This document shows positions 37,709 through 46,072 of a stretch of DNA of 64,000 nt, piece after piece. The stretch lies in the NCBI RefSeq assembly GCF_008710275.1, contig NZ_VYQE01000004.1, positions 310,001-374,000 of the forward strand, in the 5' to 3' direction. Made by a program: the position numbers and the translations under genes. How positions within the stretch are numbered: the stretch's first letter is position 1; each line of letters opens with the position of its first letter. Below the pieces are notes generated by a model that was not told the origin of the DNA, ran no database searches, and worked only from the letters and a program-made list of their open reading frames with translations. This DNA is from Histidinibacterium aquaticum (lineage in GTDB: Bacteria > Pseudomonadota > Alphaproteobacteria > Rhodobacterales > Rhodobacteraceae).

Positions 37709-38452
37709 ATGCCTGCATCGTTTTCCCGCCGCGCAGTTCTCCTTGGTCTTGGCGCCTCGGGTCTTGCCGCAGGCGCGCCGGGGCGCGCCGCCGCGCAGAA
37801 TGCCTATGCCAATCTCGAAGGCACCCCCTGGTTCTATCTCACCGACGCCGAGGCCCGGTTCCTCGCCGCAGCCGGGGACGTCCTGATTCCAGAGGATGAT
37901 TACCCGTCCGCCAGCCAGGTCGGCGTCGTCGACTTCATCGACCTCCAGCTCGCCTCTCCCTGGGGTAAGGGCGACGGGCTCTACCTCAAGGGCCCCTTCC
38001 CGGACGGCGCGACGAACTCGCAGGGCTACCAGATGCCATACACGCCGGCGGAGCTCTTCCGCACCGCGATCTCGCGCATCGAAGAGGCCGAGGGCACGGC
38101 GCTCGCCGACCTCGACGCTGCCGGGCGCGAGGACCTGATCACCCGTCTCTCTGAAGGCGAGATGGACCTCGGCGAAGACATCGGCGCCGCCGCCTTCTTC
38201 CAGGAGCTCCATTCGATCGTGAACGAGGGCTTCTTCGCCGACCCGATCTACGGCGGGAACAAGGACTACGCCGCCTGGGACATGATCGGCTTCCCCGGTG
38301 CGCACGCCTATTACCTCTCGTTCGTGGACCAGAACGTCCCCTACGAGAAGCCGCCCATGGGCATCGCCCACATCCCCGGGACCCGCCGCTCCGCCTCGCT
38401 CGGGGCGAGCGCCGGCGCCGCCCGCCCCGCCAACCGTACCGAGGAGGGCTGA
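37709..38452 (+). CDS. Gluconate 2-dehydrogenase subunit 3-like protein with Tat signal
   Basis: 247 residues. The start MPASFSRRAVLLGLGASGL carries a twin-arginine signal (SRRAVLLG). The rest matches the gluconate 2-dehydrogenase gamma-type subunit: EARFLAAAGDVLIPEDDYPSA, GGNKDYAAWDMIGFPG. This subunit is exported folded, often carrying the catalytic GMC partner with it. The GMC gene follows immediately. The last 25 residues (RRSASLGASAGAA...) look loose. Confidence 0.9.
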   Translation: MPASFSRRAVLLGLGASGLAAGAPGRAAAQNAYANLEGTPWFYLTDAEARFLAAAGDVLIPEDDYPSASQVGVVDFIDLQLASPWGKGDGLYLKGPFPDGATNSQGYQMPYTPAELFRTAISRIEEAEGTALADLDAAGREDLITRLSEGEMDLGEDIGAAAFFQELHSIVNEGFFADPIYGGNKDYAAWDMIGFPGAHAYYLSFVDQNVPYEKPPMGIAHIPGTRRSASLGASAGAARPANRTEEG

Positions 38453-38453
38453 G

Positions 38454-40235
38454 ATGGCTGCCAGGACGCTTCCCAAGACCGACGTGGTCATCGTCGGCGC
38501 CGGCTGGACCGGCCTCGCCGTGGCCAAGGAGCTCTCGGCCGAAGGCCAGCGCTGCGTGATCCTCGAACGCGGGGACTACCGCCACGATGCCGAGAATTTC
38601 GGCGGCCCCGAAGAGCATGACGAGCTCAAGTACGCCCGTCACAAGGGCCACATGATCGACACGCCGACCAAGACGCTGTCGTTCCGCAACAACACGTCAG
38701 AAACGGCGCTGCCGATGCGGCGGCTCGGCTCCTTCCTTCCCGGCAAGGGGCTCGGCGGCGCGGGCATCCACTGGAACGGTCAGCTCTGGCGGCCCCTGCC
38801 CTCCGACCTGAACATGCGCACGCACTACACCGAGCGCTACGGGGCCGAGATCCTCGACGGCATGCAGGTGCAGGACTACGGCGTGAGTTACGAGGAACTC
38901 GAGCCGCACTTCGACTTCTTTGAGCGCGTCTGCGGCACCGCCGGTCAGGCCGGCAACGTGAACGGCGAGCAGAACGATGCCGGCAATATCTTCGAGGGCC
39001 CGCGGTCGTCGGAGTACCCCAATCCGCCGATGAAGCATTCGCCGCCGCAGAAAATCTTCCGCGATACCGCGGCGAGCATGGGCTACCACCCGTTCCCGAT
39101 GCCCTCGGCCAACGTGACCGCGCCTTACGAGAACCCCTACGGCGCACAGCTGCATCCCTGCACCTACTGCGGCTTCTGCGAGCGCTTCGGTTGCGGCTAC
39201 TTCGCCAAGGCCGATCCGATCATCTGCATCTACGACACCTTCGCCGAGGAGGACCCGATCGAGATCCGCTACCGCTCCCACGTCCTGCGCGTGGAAAAGA
39301 GCGAGGACGGACAGACAGCGACGGGCGTGACTTACCTCGATCAGAACGGCGAGGAGGTCTTCCAGCCCGCCGACACGGTCTGCCTGAATTCCTACGCCCT
39401 CTGGAACGTGCACCTGATGCTCGTTTCGGGCCTCGGGACGCCCTACGACCCGGAGACGGGCGAAGGCACGGTCGGGCGCAACTACGCCTACCAGACCATC
39501 GCGGCGGCGGGCGTCTTCTTCAACGACGAGGTCTGGTCCAACCCCTTCATGGGCGCCGGCGCGATGGGCATGACCATCGACGACTTCAACGGCGACAACT
39601 TCGACCACACCGACCTCGGCTTCGTCGGTGGCGGCTACATCTCGGCCAACCAGACGAACGGCCGTCCGATCAACTACCAGCCGACGCCGCCGGGCACCCC
39701 CTCCTGGGGCGCGGAGTGGAAGCAGGCCGTGCGCGAGAACTACCTGCACCACATCGGGATCGTCTGCCACGGCTCGTCGATGCCGGTTCAGGGCAACTAC
39801 CTCGACCTCGACCCGACCTATACCGACGACTACGGCCAGCCGCTCCTGCGGATGACCTTCAACTTCCCCGAGAACGACCGGCGCATGTCCGAGTACCTTG
39901 TCGGCAAGGCCGAGGAGATCGCGCGGAACATGGACAATGTCCGCGCCGTCTCGACGGTCAACCGCGCCGCCGAGGGCGACAACTACTCGATCGTGCCCTA
40001 CCAGACGACGCACAACACGGGCGGCGCGGTCATGGGCACCGATCCCTCGACCAGCGTGGTGAACCGCTACGGCCAGATGTGGGACCACCACAACGTCTTC
40101 GTCTTCGGCGCCTGCCTCTTCCCGCAGAACCTCGGCTACAACCCGACGGGTCCGCTCATGGGGCTCGCCTACTGGACCATCGACGCGCTCAAGAACGACT
40201 ACCTGCAGAACCCCCGCCCGCTGATGGACGCGTGA
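38454..40235 (+). CDS. GMC-family membrane-linked dehydrogenase, catalytic subunit
   Basis: 593 residues from the ATG at 38454, one base after the previous stop. FAD-binding start VVIVGAGWTGLAVAKEL, GGxGIHWNGQ and the late H and N (TTHNTGGAVMG, NLGYNPTGP) mark a GMC oxidoreductase. It has no own signal sequence and would ride with the Tat-exported small subunit. Four cysteines, C236, C239, C242 and C247 (HPCTYCGFCERFGC), could hold an Fe-S cluster, as found in bacterial FAD glucose dehydrogenase; that is inference. It likely oxidises a sugar, sugar acid or alcohol in the periplasm and passes electrons to cytochrome c. Confidence 0.9.
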   Translation: MAARTLPKTDVVIVGAGWTGLAVAKELSAEGQRCVILERGDYRHDAENFGGPEEHDELKYARHKGHMIDTPTKTLSFRNNTSETALPMRRLGSFLPGKGLGGAGIHWNGQLWRPLPSDLNMRTHYTERYGAEILDGMQVQDYGVSYEELEPHFDFFERVCGTAGQAGNVNGEQNDAGNIFEGPRSSEYPNPPMKHSPPQKIFRDTAASMGYHPFPMPSANVTAPYENPYGAQLHPCTYCGFCERFGCGYFAKADPIICIYDTFAEEDPIEIRYRSHVLRVEKSEDGQTATGVTYLDQNGEEVFQPADTVCLNSYALWNVHLMLVSGLGTPYDPETGEGTVGRNYAYQTIAAAGVFFNDEVWSNPFMGAGAMGMTIDDFNGDNFDHTDLGFVGGGYISANQTNGRPINYQPTPPGTPSWGAEWKQAVRENYLHHIGIVCHGSSMPVQGNYLDLDPTYTDDYGQPLLRMTFNFPENDRRMSEYLVGKAEEIARNMDNVRAVSTVNRAAEGDNYSIVPYQTTHNTGGAVMGTDPSTSVVNRYGQMWDHHNVFVFGACLFPQNLGYNPTGPLMGLAYWTIDALKNDYLQNPRPLMDA

Positions 40236-40248
40236 GAAGGGAAAGCCC

Positions 40249-41103
40249 ATGCGACTGACCACCAAATCCGTACTTCTCGGTCTGCCCGTCCTCTTCGGTG
40301 CGGCCCTCGCCGCCCCGGCCCAGGACATGTCCGAGGCCCCCCGCGTCAACGAACTGGAGGCCCGGCTCAACGTCGACAGCACCCTGTTCAACGCGACCAT
40401 CGACGAGGAACCCTCGGACGACATGCTCGAACTCGGGCGTCTCGTGGCCATGGGGGGCGCCGAGAACGGCGGCTCCGGAATGGCCTGCGTGACCTGCCAC
40501 GGCGCCAACGGACAGGGCGACGGCGCGGGGGTCTTCCCGCGGCTCGCCGGTCTTCCGGGCTGGTACATGTACAAGCAGCTCGAGGACTACGCCGAGGGCA
40601 CGCGCCCGAACCGGATCATGACCGGCATCGCCCAGCGCCTCACCGAGGACGAACGCGAGGCGGTCGCGTCCTATTACGCCGTGGTCGAAGCCCCCTGGCC
40701 CGGCCCGCAGGCCGCGGCCCCGATCAGTGGCGATCAGCTCCAGTGGGGCGGCCAGCTGGCGGCGGTGGGCTCTGCCGAGCAAGGCATCCCGGGCTGCGTC
40801 AACTGCCACGGGCCGAACGGTACCGGCAATCCGCCCTCCGTGCCCTACCTCGCCGGACAATACGCGGAGTACATGAGCCACCAGCTCCAGCTTTGGCGGG
40901 AAGGCACGCGCCAGAACGACGCCATGGGCGTGATGGAGACCATCGCCTCCAAGATGACCGACGAGGACATGCGCGCCGTCTCCGCCTACTACGCGCGGGT
41001 TCGGCCCGGTCTCGAAAGCGTCACGCCGCCTGCGCCGATGGACGATGGCGAGGTTGCCGAGATCGAGACGGAAACCAGCGACCTGCTCTCCGACGTCGAT
41101 TAA
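40249..41103 (+). CDS. Diheme cytochrome c (c4-like)
   Basis: 284 residues with a signal peptide ending APAQ. Two heme sites: CVTCH at 80-84 and CVNCH at 183-187, each in a class I cytochrome half with methionines behind (MTGIAQRL, MGVMETIASK). Such c4-type proteins pass electrons between dehydrogenase and oxidase. The acidic tail after residue 260 is unusual. It lies 13 bases behind the GMC gene. Confidence 0.9.
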   Translation: MRLTTKSVLLGLPVLFGAALAAPAQDMSEAPRVNELEARLNVDSTLFNATIDEEPSDDMLELGRLVAMGGAENGGSGMACVTCHGANGQGDGAGVFPRLAGLPGWYMYKQLEDYAEGTRPNRIMTGIAQRLTEDEREAVASYYAVVEAPWPGPQAAAPISGDQLQWGGQLAAVGSAEQGIPGCVNCHGPNGTGNPPSVPYLAGQYAEYMSHQLQLWREGTRQNDAMGVMETIASKMTDEDMRAVSAYYARVRPGLESVTPPAPMDDGEVAEIETETSDLLSDVD

Positions 41104-41106
41104 GGA

Positions 41107-41610
41107 ATGATGCGGCGACTGGGGATCTTTCTGGCTCTGATCTTTGCCTTCGGCGCATCGGTCGCGGTGGCCCACTGGGCCGTCGCCCGGCCGGGGCACG
41201 AGGATCCGGTCGGCGAGATTTTCGCGGACTGGAACGACCGGCTCGCCGCGTTCAACGATTGGCGGCGGGCTCAGTCCGATAACAGGCCGGACTGGCAGGA
41301 CGCCCGGCACCAGGTGCTGAATGGCGACGCAGAAACGGGTGCCCGGCTCATCGCGGATTACGGCTGCGGCGCCTGCCACACGATCCCAGGCATCGCATGG
41401 GCGAACGGGAGCGTTGGCCCGCGTCTCGCGGGCTTCGCGGACCGGGCCTACGTCGGTGGCGTGCTTCCCAACGAGCCCGGAGACCTTGTCCGCTGGCTCA
41501 TCGATCCGACGATCTACGCGCCCGACACCGCCATGCCCGACCTCGGTGTGACCGAGCCGGAGGCCGAACACATGGCCGCCTATCTCTATACCCTGGGGAC
41601 TGATCGATGA
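41107..41610 (+). CDS. Monoheme cytochrome c
   Basis: 167 residues with one N-terminal hydrophobic helix that may serve as an anchor. One heme site, CGACH at 87-91, and the ligand methionine in DTAMPDLGV. Gap of three bases to the diheme gene and four-base overlap with coxB, so it belongs to the same operon. Confidence 0.88.
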   Translation: MMRRLGIFLALIFAFGASVAVAHWAVARPGHEDPVGEIFADWNDRLAAFNDWRRAQSDNRPDWQDARHQVLNGDAETGARLIADYGCGACHTIPGIAWANGSVGPRLAGFADRAYVGGVLPNEPGDLVRWLIDPTIYAPDTAMPDLGVTEPEAEHMAAYLYTLGTDR

Positions 41611-42539
41611 ACTCCGAGCTCGGCGAATTCGGCGCCCAGTCGGCCCTCGTCGCTGCCGGCCAGAACGCCGAGTGGGCGCTCTGGCTTACGGTCCTGATGA
41701 CCATAGCCGGCGGCGTCATCTTCCTTTTCGTCCTCTGGGCCATCGCGTCGGCCTGGCGCAGCGACGGCGGTGGCCGGACGTGGTGGATCGTGGGCGGCGG
41801 CGTGATCTTCCCGATCGTGACGCTCGCCGTGCTCTTCGCCCTCTCGACCTTCGCCCTGCGCGCCATCGCCGGACCCCAGGACGAGGAGCTGGTCATCGAG
41901 GTGACCGGCCACCAGTACTGGTGGGACGTGGTCTACGACCCCGAGGGCGTCGCCCTGCGTGACGCCAACGAGGTCTTCCTGCCCGTGGGGCGGCCCGTCA
42001 CCCTGCGGCTCAAGTCCGATGACGTGATCCACTCCTTCTGGGTGCCCTCGATCGCCGGCAAGATGGACATGATCCCGGGCCGGGTGAACGAGCTCACTGT
42101 CACCGCTACCGAGGTCGGCCGCTATCGCGGCCAGTGCGCCGAGTTCTGCGGCCTCTCGCACCCGCTGATGTCCTTCGAGGCCGTGGCGCTGGAGCCCGAG
42201 GCCTTCGCGACCTTCCTCGGCAACCTGCAGGGCGAGGCGCGCGATCCGGTTCGCCCGCAGGAACGGCAGGGGCAGGAGGTCTTCGTCGAGGCGGGATGCC
42301 CCGCCTGCCATACCATTCGCGGCGTCGCCGAGGGGGCGCAGATCGGCCCCGACCTCACGCGCGTCGGCGGCCGGGCGAGCCTCGGGGCCGGGATGTGGGA
42401 GATGAACCTCGGGAACCTCGCGGGCTGGATCTCCGACGTTCAGGATATGAAGCCCGGCGCCGAGATGCCCTCCTACAACCACCTCAGCGGTCCGGATCTT
42501 CGGGCCGTCGCAGCCTACCTGGAGAGCCTGTCGCAATGA
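41607..42539 (+). CDS. coxB: Cytochrome c oxidase subunit II fused to cytochrome c (caa3 type)
   Basis: 310 residues. Two membrane helices, then the cupredoxin domain with all CuA ligands: H142 (HSFWVP), C177, E179, C181, H185 and M188 (CAEFCGLSHPLM). The C-terminal cytochrome c domain has CPACH at 231-235 and the ligand methionine in GAEMPSYN. This fusion defines a caa3 oxidase, which takes electrons directly from a cytochrome c or c4. ATGA overlap with coxA. Confidence 0.96.
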   Translation: MNSELGEFGAQSALVAAGQNAEWALWLTVLMTIAGGVIFLFVLWAIASAWRSDGGGRTWWIVGGGVIFPIVTLAVLFALSTFALRAIAGPQDEELVIEVTGHQYWWDVVYDPEGVALRDANEVFLPVGRPVTLRLKSDDVIHSFWVPSIAGKMDMIPGRVNELTVTATEVGRYRGQCAEFCGLSHPLMSFEAVALEPEAFATFLGNLQGEARDPVRPQERQGQEVFVEAGCPACHTIRGVAEGAQIGPDLTRVGGRASLGAGMWEMNLGNLAGWISDVQDMKPGAEMPSYNHLSGPDLRAVAAYLESLSQ

Positions 42540-45055
42540 CTGTCCTCGACGAAATGCGGGACTATCCCGGCGCACGCAAGGGAGAGCCCCACAAGAGCTT
42601 CGAGGAGGTCTGGGCGCAGCCGCCGGGACTCAAGGTGCTGTCCTCCGTCAGTCACCGGGTCGTCGGCAAGCGCTTCATCGCGACCGGTTTCATCTTCTTC
42701 CTGATCGCCGGGTTCCTCGCGCTTCTCGTGCGGACCCAGCTCATCGTGCCGGGCAACACCTTCCTAGATGCCGAGACCTACAACCAGGTCTTCACGATGC
42801 ACGGGTCGCTGATGATGTTCCTCTTCGCGATCCCGATCCTGGAGGGCTTCGCGGTCTACCTCATCCCGCTGATGCTGGGCGCACGGGACCTGATCTTCCC
42901 GCGTCTCGGGCAGTTCGGGTACTACTGCTACCTGCTGGGTGGCATTATCGTCCTGTCGTCGTTCATCTTCGACGCGGCGCCGGCGGGCGGCTGGTTCATG
43001 TACACGCCGCTGTCGACCTCCGAGTACACGCCCGGGCTCTCCGCCGACTTCTGGCTGATCGGGATCACCTTCGCCGAGATCGCCTCGGTCACCGCGGCGG
43101 TCGAGCTCATCGCCGCGATCCTCTGCGCCCGCGCGCCGGGGATGTCGCTGACCAAGATGCCGGTCTTCGCCTGGTACATCCTGATCACCGCCTTCATGAT
43201 CGCCATCGGCTTCCCGCCTCTGATCATGGGCTCGATCCTGCTGGAGACGCAGCGCCTGCTCGGCCTGCCGTTCTTCGACCCCGCGCTGGGCGGCGACCCG
43301 CTTCTCTGGCAGCATCTCTTCTGGCTCTTCGGTCACCCCGAGGTCTACATCATCTTCCTGCCGGCGGCCGGCATGGTCTCGACCATTCTGCCGACCTTCG
43401 TCGGCAAGCCGCTCTTCGGCTACGGTTTCGTCGTCGCGGCCGTCGTCTCGATGGGCTTCATTTCCTTCGGCCTCTGGGCACACCACATGTTCGCGACGGG
43501 CTTGCCCATCCTGTCGCTCTCGCTCTTCTCGGCGGCCTCGACCATGGTCGCGGTGCCCACCGGCATCCAGATCTTCGCCTGGATCGCCACCTTGGCGCAG
43601 GGACGACCCCGACTGACCGTCCCCATGCTCTTCGTTCTGGGCTTTCTCTTCATCTTCGTGTTGGGCGGCCTGACAGGGGTCATGCTCGCCTCGGTGCCAT
43701 TCAACTGGCAGGCCCACGACAGCTACTTCGTCGTCGCGCACCTGCACTACGTGCTGATCGGCGGCATGGTCTTCCCGCTCTTCGGGGCCTTCTACTACTG
43801 GGCGCCGCACTTCACCGGGCGGATGATGTCGGAGACCCTCGGCAAGTGGGTCTTCTGGCTGATGTTCATCGGCTTCAACGTGACCTTCTTCACGATGCAC
43901 CTGACGGGGCTCAGGGGGATGCCGCGGCGCATCTCGACCTACCCGGAGGGCATCGGCTGGGACCGGCTGAACCTGATCTCAACGCTGGGCAGTTACGTCC
44001 TCGCCGCCGGGGTGCTGCTCTTCATCGTCGACTTCCTGCGGCACCGCCGGAGCGGCCCGCCGGCCGGGCGGAACCCCTGGGGCGCGGGCACGCTCGAGTG
44101 GCTCTATCCGACCGTGACACCGGGCTTCAATTTCCACGCGATCCCGCCGGTGACGAGCCGCGAGCCGCTCTGGGACCAGCCCGAGCTCAACGATCGGGAG
44201 GCGCCCACCGTGGAGGGCATCCTGAACGTGATGACCGACGGCCGGCGCGAGACGGTCGGCTGCGACCCGGTGACCGGGGAACCGATCCAGATTCTGCGCC
44301 TGCCGCACCCGACATGGATCCCGATGTTCTCGGCGGTGATGGTCGCGATCCTCTTCGGCGCAACCCTCGCCTCCGCCTACTGGCTCTGCGCCGTCGGGGC
44401 GGTAGGGGCGCTCCTCGGCTTCGCGCTCTGGGGGTGGGAGCCCTCGGACAGCGGCGTCACCCGGTTCGCCGGACTGGGCCACAGGCTCCCGGTGAATGCC
44501 ATCGACCGCAGGAGCCATATGCACGTCGGCCTCATCGGCACCCTGCTGATCCTCTTCGCCCTCTTCGGGTCGGTGGTCTTCGGGGGACTTTTCCTCTGGA
44601 ACACGCAGCCCGAGTTCGCTGACGCCACGGCCCGCCCGGTCCAGCTCTGGGCCGCACTGACCGGGGCAGGGGGGCTGCTCGTCGCGCTCTTCGCAGTGGC
44701 CGCGCGGAACGCCGCCATGGCGAGCCGTTTTGCCGGGGCGGCGGGTCTCGGCGTCCTGACCGCCGCTTTCGCTGCCGCGACCGCCTGGGGTTTCTGGCTG
44801 ACGCTCCTGCCGGTCGACCCCTGGGGAACGGCGCTCGGGGCCGTGCTCTGGGCGATGTCCGGTTTCGTCGCGGCCTTGCTCGGGACCGTCGTGTTCTGGG
44901 CGCTCTTCAACGTGGCACGCAAGCTCGCCAGTGCGGTGCAGCCCGGTCAGGCCATGGCGGATTTCCAGCTTGCCGGGTTCGCCAAGGGCACGGGTCTCAT
45001 GACCATCGCCGCGGCAGGGCTGCTGCTGGCCTGCGCCCTGGGAGGTGTCGGATGA
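42536..45055 (+). CDS. coxA: Cytochrome c oxidase subunit I, fused to a subunit-III-like part
   Basis: 839 residues from the ATG at 42536. Heme and copper ligands of subunit I are present: H89 (TMHGSLMMF), H267 and Y271 of GHPEVY, H316/H317 (WAHHMF), H402 and H404 (AHLHYVL). The K-channel lysine is Q345 here (PTGIQIFAW instead of PTGIKIF), and the D-channel asparagines seem changed while D118 stays. From about residue 560 on there are six or more extra hydrophobic segments, in the place of subunit III, but its usual motifs are hard to see. Length fits the I/III fusions of some caa3 oxidases. Confidence 0.93.
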   Translation: MTVLDEMRDYPGARKGEPHKSFEEVWAQPPGLKVLSSVSHRVVGKRFIATGFIFFLIAGFLALLVRTQLIVPGNTFLDAETYNQVFTMHGSLMMFLFAIPILEGFAVYLIPLMLGARDLIFPRLGQFGYYCYLLGGIIVLSSFIFDAAPAGGWFMYTPLSTSEYTPGLSADFWLIGITFAEIASVTAAVELIAAILCARAPGMSLTKMPVFAWYILITAFMIAIGFPPLIMGSILLETQRLLGLPFFDPALGGDPLLWQHLFWLFGHPEVYIIFLPAAGMVSTILPTFVGKPLFGYGFVVAAVVSMGFISFGLWAHHMFATGLPILSLSLFSAASTMVAVPTGIQIFAWIATLAQGRPRLTVPMLFVLGFLFIFVLGGLTGVMLASVPFNWQAHDSYFVVAHLHYVLIGGMVFPLFGAFYYWAPHFTGRMMSETLGKWVFWLMFIGFNVTFFTMHLTGLRGMPRRISTYPEGIGWDRLNLISTLGSYVLAAGVLLFIVDFLRHRRSGPPAGRNPWGAGTLEWLYPTVTPGFNFHAIPPVTSREPLWDQPELNDREAPTVEGILNVMTDGRRETVGCDPVTGEPIQILRLPHPTWIPMFSAVMVAILFGATLASAYWLCAVGAVGALLGFALWGWEPSDSGVTRFAGLGHRLPVNAIDRRSHMHVGLIGTLLILFALFGSVVFGGLFLWNTQPEFADATARPVQLWAALTGAGGLLVALFAVAARNAAMASRFAGAAGLGVLTAAFAAATAWGFWLTLLPVDPWGTALGAVLWAMSGFVAALLGTVVFWALFNVARKLASAVQPGQAMADFQLAGFAKGTGLMTIAAAGLLLACALGGVG

Positions 45056-45366
45056 ACGGACGCCGGACACAGCTCCTCGCAATCGCCGGACCGCCTACGG
45101 CCTGGGCGATCCACTTCGTGCTGATTTATTCGGTCATCTCCGCCCAGTGCGCGCCGCGGGCGCTGCTGGATCCGGCAAGCTCCTGGATCATCGCCGGGGT
45201 GGGCACGGCGATCCTCGTGCTGGCCGCGATCCTGCCCGCGTTCTTCCTCCGGCGGATCCCCGAGCGCCCTCTCGTGCCCGCCACGATCTGGCTCGCCGTG
45301 ATCTCGGTCGTGGCGATACTGTTCGATACCGCCTTTCTCTTCACCTTCCCCACCTGCGGAGGCTGA
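45052..45366 (+). CDS. Small three-helix membrane protein in the caa3 operon
   Basis: 104 residues with three hydrophobic segments and a start overlapping the coxA stop in ATGA. No family recognised. Its place between coxA and ctaG-like gene suggests an oxidase subunit (subunit IV-like) or an assembly helper. Confidence 0.8.
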   Translation: MNGRRTQLLAIAGPPTAWAIHFVLIYSVISAQCAPRALLDPASSWIIAGVGTAILVLAAILPAFFLRRIPERPLVPATIWLAVISVVAILFDTAFLFTFPTCGG

Positions 45367-45367
45367 C

Positions 45368-46072
45368 ATGGAGTACGTTCCCTTCTGCGGCACGCCGCCG
45401 GCACCCGTCGAGCTCCTGACCCGCTGGACCTTCGATCCGGCCCTGCTCCTCGGCCTCGCGGCTTTCCTGGTCGTCGGGCTCTGGACCGCCCACCGGCGCG
45501 GCCGGTTCCTGGTCGGCTGGGGATTGACCGTGCTGCTCTTCGTCTCGCCGCTCTGCGCCCTGTCGATGGCCCTGTTCTCGGCACGGGTGGGCCAGCATCT
45601 CCTGCTGACGCTGGTGGTGGCGCCGCTCATCGCCTCCTCGGTTCCCCTCCCCCGGCTCACGCCGCTGGTCACGGCCGCCTTCTTCGCCGCGCTCTTCTGG
45701 GTCTGGCACGCGCCCGCGCCCTACGCGGGAACCCTGGCCTCCGATCTGACGTACTGGAGCATGCACCTCAGCCTCTTCATCTCTTCGGTGCTCTTCTGGC
45801 GCTCGCTGGGGGCCGACCGTCCCTTCGAGAGCTTCCTCGCCGCGGCCTTCACCGCCGCGCAGATGACGGCCTATTCGGTGCTGCTGGTCCTCTCGCCCGA
45901 GCCTTGGCACGCCTGGCACGAACTCACCACGGCGCCCTACGGGATGAGCGCGCTGGGCGACCAGGCGCTGGCCGGAGGACTCATGTGGGTCGTCGGCGGA
46001 CTGCTCTTCGTCGGGACGATCGGGCTCGCCGTGGCTCGGTACGCCAACAGGCAGACGCCCGTCGGGTCCTGA
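45368..46072 (+). CDS. ctaG: CtaG-type caa3 oxidase assembly protein
   Basis: 234 residues with about six membrane segments. Matches the Caa3_CtaG family (FVSPLCALSMALFSARVGQHLLLTLVVAPLI ... HLSLFISSVLFWRSL, each a hydrophobic run broken here by charged turns; ALGDQALAGGLMWVVGG). This group differs from the Cox11/CtaG copper chaperone and is needed for caa3 assembly in Bacillus. Starts one base after the previous stop. Last gene of the respiratory operon; a weak 5-bp GC hairpin lies behind it at 46127-46142. Confidence 0.85.
   Translation: MEYVPFCGTPPAPVELLTRWTFDPALLLGLAAFLVVGLWTAHRRGRFLVGWGLTVLLFVSPLCALSMALFSARVGQHLLLTLVVAPLIASSVPLPRLTPLVTAAFFAALFWVWHAPAPYAGTLASDLTYWSMHLSLFISSVLFWRSLGADRPFESFLAAAFTAAQMTAYSVLLVLSPEPWHAWHELTTAPYGMSALGDQALAGGLMWVVGGLLFVGTIGLAVARYANRQTPVGS

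Follow-up and report, generated by a model that had tools for sequence, protein, structure and literature searches.

Family A oxidases are considered unable to do without the lysine of the K pathway, and its removal in Rhodobacter or Paracoccus leaves mutants with hardly any turnover. The published path leads from a glutamate of subunit II through a serine, the lysine and a threonine to the cross-link tyrosine (PMC8361435), and only one or two chemistry protons are thought to use it (PMC8079940, PMC8361435). Among bacterial enzymes, the COX operons of type a were defined by operon and fusion, in papers whose main texts make no mention of the K channel (PMC4013037, PMC6431628).

The window, the whole stretch of 64,000 nucleotides of Histidinibacterium aquaticum DNA that was analysed (contig NZ_VYQE01000004.1), contains an operon for a caa3-type oxidase whose subunit I has no K-pathway lysine. 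Its genes and the residues discussed below are listed in Table 1.

Table 1. Genes, domains and residue codons of the oxidase operon, with positions in the window (Pd, Paracoccus numbering).
Feature	Position	Strand	Remarks
Gluconate 2-dehydrogenase subunit 3-like protein	37709..38452	+	PF13618; N-terminal RR (Tat-like) signal read from sequence
GMC-family FAD dehydrogenase	38454..40235	+	PF05199
Diheme cytochrome c	40249..41103	+	two PF00034 stretches
Monoheme cytochrome c	41107..41610	+	CxxCH in sequence; family matches sub-threshold
CoxB, CuA domain plus C-terminal cytochrome c	41607..42539	+	PF00116, PF00034
CoxB V62, column of the K-pathway entry Glu in K-type CoxB	41790..41792	+	CoxB alignment
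CoxA-CoxC fusion (A1-type caa3 subunit I lacking the K-pathway lysine)	42536..45055	+	839 aa, intact ORF
E103 (Pd G109), new helix II Glu, one turn from N113	42842..42844	+	alignment
V107 for D-channel N113	42854..42856	+	alignment
D118, the D-pathway entrance D124 (Pd)	42887..42889	+	present in CoxA
G125 for D-channel N131	42908..42910	+	S, T or G in most main-clade sequences
E181 (Pd G190), new helix IV Glu	43076..43078	+	138/138 main clade, 0/39 K-type
E190 for D-channel N199	43103..43105	+	Glu in 134/138 main clade; Asn in 39/39 K-type
E269 and cross-link Y271 (GHPEVY motif), helix VI	43340..43348	+	intact; invariant in clade alignment
Q345 codon CAG (K354 Paracoccus, K362 Rhodobacter)	43568..43570	+	gap-free alignment
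Subunit III-like C-terminal region	44471..45052	+	residues about 646-839; hhalign vs CoxC sequences
Small protein	45052..45366	+	kept in close relatives' operon, 39-42% identity (L006, L089, L093)
CtaG copper assembly factor, Caa3_CtaG type	45368..46072	+	PF09678

CoxA scored 708 bits against the CtaD profile TIGR02891, above its cut-off, and 500 bits against PF00115. The AlphaFold2 model, which is built without waters, cofactors and subunit II, had a pLDDT of 88 and matched aa3, bo3 and caa3 chains with Z scores of 40-44. Its best full-length match was the I+III fusion of Thermus thermophilus caa3 (2yev), in which 763 residues (model residues 29-833) superposed at 2.5 A with TM scores of 0.84/0.90. 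Pfam detected no CoxC domain in the C-terminus, although a profile-profile comparison of the last ~190 residues with CoxC sequences did so clearly (hhalign probability 99.6, E 1.2e-24), and this region is a diverged subunit III. The heme and CuB ligands H89, H267, H316, H317, H402 and H404 are all in CoxA and are invariant across the clade alignment. With these ligands, the subunit I fold, GHPEV and the cross-link tyrosine, CoxA has the features of an A1-type enzyme.

The K pathway is where CoxA departs from that type. The motif PTGIQIF aligned without a gap to the PTGIK lysine of five solved actinobacterial aa3 structures, and in the multiple alignment Q345 fell, again gap-free, in the column of Paracoccus K354. 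That column held Gln in 138 of 138 main-clade sequences and Lys in all 39 K-type outgroup sequences; in 14 further early-branching rows, two of which are the same gene, it held Gln in four (actinobacterial) and Ala, Ser or Gly in ten. No displaced lysine, the outcome that the preliminary description had set against its own reading, was conserved on or beside helix VIII in the clade alignments, and there was no substitute acid along that helix. The serine beside the lysine (Pd 357) was mostly replaced in the K-less enzymes, and Thr/Ser at Pd 351 and Tyr280 were retained in nearly all of them, S291 in many. At the other end of the path, the entry column of CoxB was never acidic in K-less sequences (an acid lay within four positions in 14 of 131 main-clade CoxB), whereas all 26 K-type sequences had an acid there or no more than four positions away. 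Where the K pathway has its helix VIII lysine and subunit II glutamate, the present enzyme has Q345 and V62. Judged from these alignments, neither end of the K path has survived in the clade.

At the D pathway, the entrance D118 and the terminal E269 remain and the asparagines in between are replaced. N113 and N131 were largely replaced across the main clade relative to K-type sequences, and D124 itself gives way to Asn, Ser or Glu in some of the members, rhizobial and burkholderial ones among them. Three glutamates are new to the region. At Pd 109, main-clade sequences with a residue there had Glu (131), Gln (5) or Gly (1), and Glu was not common among K-type sequences at this position. The glutamate at 199 was lost in four members, three of which have Gln at Pd 109; this joint loss (Fisher p 2e-4, overstated as the sequences are related) hints that E109 and E199 may interact. 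By helical count (100 degrees per residue) Pd 190 lies on the opposite face of helix IV from 199, and the glutamate there may therefore not line the D path.

Ten sampled members (L087, L147, L053, L148, L088, L152, L153, L155, L158 and L162) combine Asn at D124 with K354Q, and nine of the ten retain all three glutamates. They are natural counterparts of a D-pathway plus K-pathway double mutation. Most are rhizobial COX1 proteins of 635 residues, which we presume may be of the CoxMNOP type of Bradyrhizobium, and one is from Acidobacteriota.

The preliminary description had called the enzyme a caa3 oxidase with Gln for the K-channel lysine in PTGIQIFAW, intact metal ligands and cross-link tyrosine, and apparently replaced D-channel asparagines beside a retained D118. 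Each of these claims held: the upstream CoxB has COX2 and cytochrome c domains, the structures and the multiple alignment place Q345 at the lysine, the clade alignment shows the ligands and tyrosine intact, and the asparagines have given way (N113 to V107, N131 to G125, N199 to E190). The description did not mention the I+III fusion, the missing subunit II glutamate or the three new glutamates.

Relatives of COX1 were collected from whole-genome searches, GTDB contigs and plasmids, and compared with canonical aa3, bo3, actinobacterial, deinococcal, planctomycete and haloarchaeal sequences. Among species of the same class as H. aquaticum, 25 of 385 had matches close enough for the K-less group, and among those of its phylum 39 of 398; the sampled clade spans Pseudomonadota (with rhizobial and acetobacterial members), Planctomycetota, Acidobacteriota and Actinomycetota. 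Trees were built with the proton-path columns masked. In a tree of 127 rows every K-less enzyme lay on one side of a branch with an SH-aLRT of 99, and in a tree of 38 rows the corresponding branch had a bootstrap of 100 and an SH-aLRT of 98, with a single change between K and not-K in 99% of bootstrap trees. The Glu-bearing main clade was nested within the K-less group (100/97), so the lysine was lost before the new glutamates arose; and since the earliest K-less branches lack these glutamates, their gain was not a strict condition for the loss. The tree itself is unrooted, and loss is the likelier direction because the lysine is present in the bo3, canonical aa3, actinobacterial, deinococcal and archaeal comparison sequences. 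These sequence comparisons suggest that the lysine was lost once and never regained in a large, old branch of mitochondrial-type oxidases.

Whether Gln is fixed in one clade was a check proposed in the preliminary description, and by alignment and tree it is fixed in the strongly supported main clade. The description had further offered two readings: a different route for the protons, or membership of an oxidase branch that has received little study. The branch is borne out by the K-less clade and its missing entry glutamate, and the other half fits as well, with the choice of path a matter of interpretation. By tree and fold, CoxA is a K-less variant beside the canonical A1 enzymes and not a canonical two-channel A1 oxidase.

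Two further groups were observed. The actinobacterial K-less oxidases L167, L168, L149 and L160 have Gln at 354 and retain the D-channel asparagines, with Asp at E278 in two and Trp in one; they are possible intermediates. A subgroup of COX1 proteins of ~650 residues (L055, L056, L057, L166, L169, L170, L172, L177 and L193) has GHPWVY, i.e. Trp for E278, plus Ala, Ser or Gly for K354, and so carries neither the K lysine nor the D-path glutamate but retains the tyrosine and the metal ligands.

With neither the lysine nor the subunit II glutamate present, and no acid in their place along helix VIII, entry from the D side only appears the most likely arrangement. The D route, which may have been rebuilt with the glutamates at Pd 109, 190 and 199, would then admit every proton, also those that the lysine normally conducts to the cross-link tyrosine. 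We give an even chance to such a Glu-lined route in this K-less A1 caa3 oxidase. Calculations suggest that just one proton depends on the K path, and the first reduction step still goes on in lysine mutants (PMC8079940), so a cycle run by the D route only can be envisaged, provided that a lower barrier separates the binuclear centre from the tyrosine. The pumping stoichiometry would probably be changed or lost, a step that we propose with less assurance. More broadly, and as a tentative and rather doubtful extension, family A oxidases might be able to run on a single new route made by glutamates, a third path between helices II and IV that carries the chemistry protons, and the pumped ones if any, K having been abandoned once and the D-path Asp also replaced in rhizobial members.

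An explanation compatible with either the rebuilt D route or a relay through Gln345 is that CoxA reduces O2 without pumping protons, as an uncoupled electron-sink oxidase of which the losses of the K lysine and the D-channel asparagines are signs. N131 and N199 are both replaced, and exchange of Asn for Asp at these sites, as in N207D, uncouples pumping in the Paracoccus and Rhodobacter enzymes. For Paracoccus, such a D-pathway change is named as uncoupling in the title of PDB 3EHB, where the sequence entry shows N131D; more generally, minor alterations close to the D entrance often have this effect (PMC8361435). CoxA is, moreover, an accessory oxidase in a genome that also encodes a canonical aa3. 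However, E278 is conserved, as is D124 in most members, and the pump route has therefore not simply decayed. We place the absence of pumping somewhat short of an even chance.

The retained Thr/Ser at Pd 351 and Tyr280, and the S291 kept in many members, would also suit a K route that still works, with Gln345, Thr342 and waters relaying protons to Y271 after entry from the lipid or the subunit II surface. K-analogous routes of B- and C-type oxidases operate without a lysine, and the fixation of Gln specifically in the main clade suggests a particular role for this side chain. Yet B-type ba3 retains an entry glutamate, which is never present in subunit II here, S357 is mostly lost, and the residue at 354 is Ala, Ser or Gly in early-branching members; we regard a working Gln relay as unlikely. 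It is very improbable that CoxA is not an oxygen reductase at all but, for example, a nitric oxide reductase, which would need no proton channels: such enzymes also have altered K and D residues, but CoxA keeps the cross-link tyrosine, which is missing from the nitric oxide reductase subunits known to us, as well as GHPEV, the CuA domain and CtaG, and it exceeds the TIGR02891 cut-off. A sequencing error, raised in the preliminary description, a misalignment or a decaying gene has a negligible chance even though AAG and CAG are one base apart, since the same residue occurs in 138 sequences from several phyla and in independent genomes that include Dinoroseobacter shibae pDSHI02 and a Marivita MAG, the frame of 839 codons is intact, and PTG-x-Q-x-F aligns gap-free.

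The rebuilt D route, which we continue to prefer, concerns protons; the source of electrons is suggested by gene order. The operon runs from the Tat-like small subunit through the GMC dehydrogenase, diheme c, monoheme c, CoxB-c, CoxA-C and the small protein to CtaG. D. shibae pDSHI02, with WP_012187277.1 and WP_012187278.1 as its ctaD-coxB pair, has the same gene order, and the Marivita MAG has the same gene set; the SDR and alpha-amylase genes upstream of the GMC module are also common to D. shibae. The plasmid-borne oxidase was not treated in the passages of the D. shibae literature that were found. The dehydrogenase, its Tat-like subunit and the two cytochromes c (37709-41610) lie directly upstream of the oxidase, which suggests that together they form a periplasmic chain from substrate to oxygen that bypasses quinone. 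CoxA would then be an accessory oxidase fed by the periplasmic GMC dehydrogenase via the diheme and monoheme cytochromes c. Within the neighbouring DNA compared, the GMC module is absent from most other clade members, and electron source and proton path are therefore separate matters. The genome also encodes a canonical K-type aa3, a cbb3 and CtaA. A fourth COX1-family gene (L004, G000:C1:432257-433486) scored 243 bits to PF00115.

How many proton routes an oxidase of this kind needs is a question for which the K-less clade provides a natural test. The clade's variants without D124 or E278 allow a direct test, in wild-type enzymes, of which path each proton depends on, and one K-less enzyme, that of D. 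shibae pDSHI02, sits in a genetically tractable host. Among the main texts of the open-access papers that were searched, none reported K-channel loss or the new glutamates in this bacterial clade.

In its features the clade matches what Degli Esposti (2014, 2019) described as COX operon type a / a-II (A1 oxidases, subtype a). It shares with type a (PMC4013037, PMC6431628) a COX1-COX3 fusion of about 840 residues or a COX1 extension (630-670 residues), the CoxB-cytochrome c fusion, a CtaG of the Caa3_CtaG type and a position accessory to a mitochondrial-type operon; the present operon (37709-46072) differs by its added GMC dehydrogenase module. Compared with the aa3 oxidases of Paracoccus and Rhodobacter, the fold (Z about 40), metal ligands, cross-link tyrosine, GHPEV and D124 are common, but CoxA and CoxB lack K354, the subunit II E78, N113, N131 and N199 and have glutamates at 109, 190 and 199. 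Thermus thermophilus caa3 shares the I+III fusion and a CoxB with cytochrome c and is the best whole-length fold match, yet it is assigned to the A2 type (PMC6431628), whereas CoxA has the A1 GHPEV. Loss of the canonical K channel is on record for archaeal family A oxidases (PMC8239418); in contrast to those variants, the K-less clade consists of bacterial enzymes, and the loss is accompanied there by three new glutamates.
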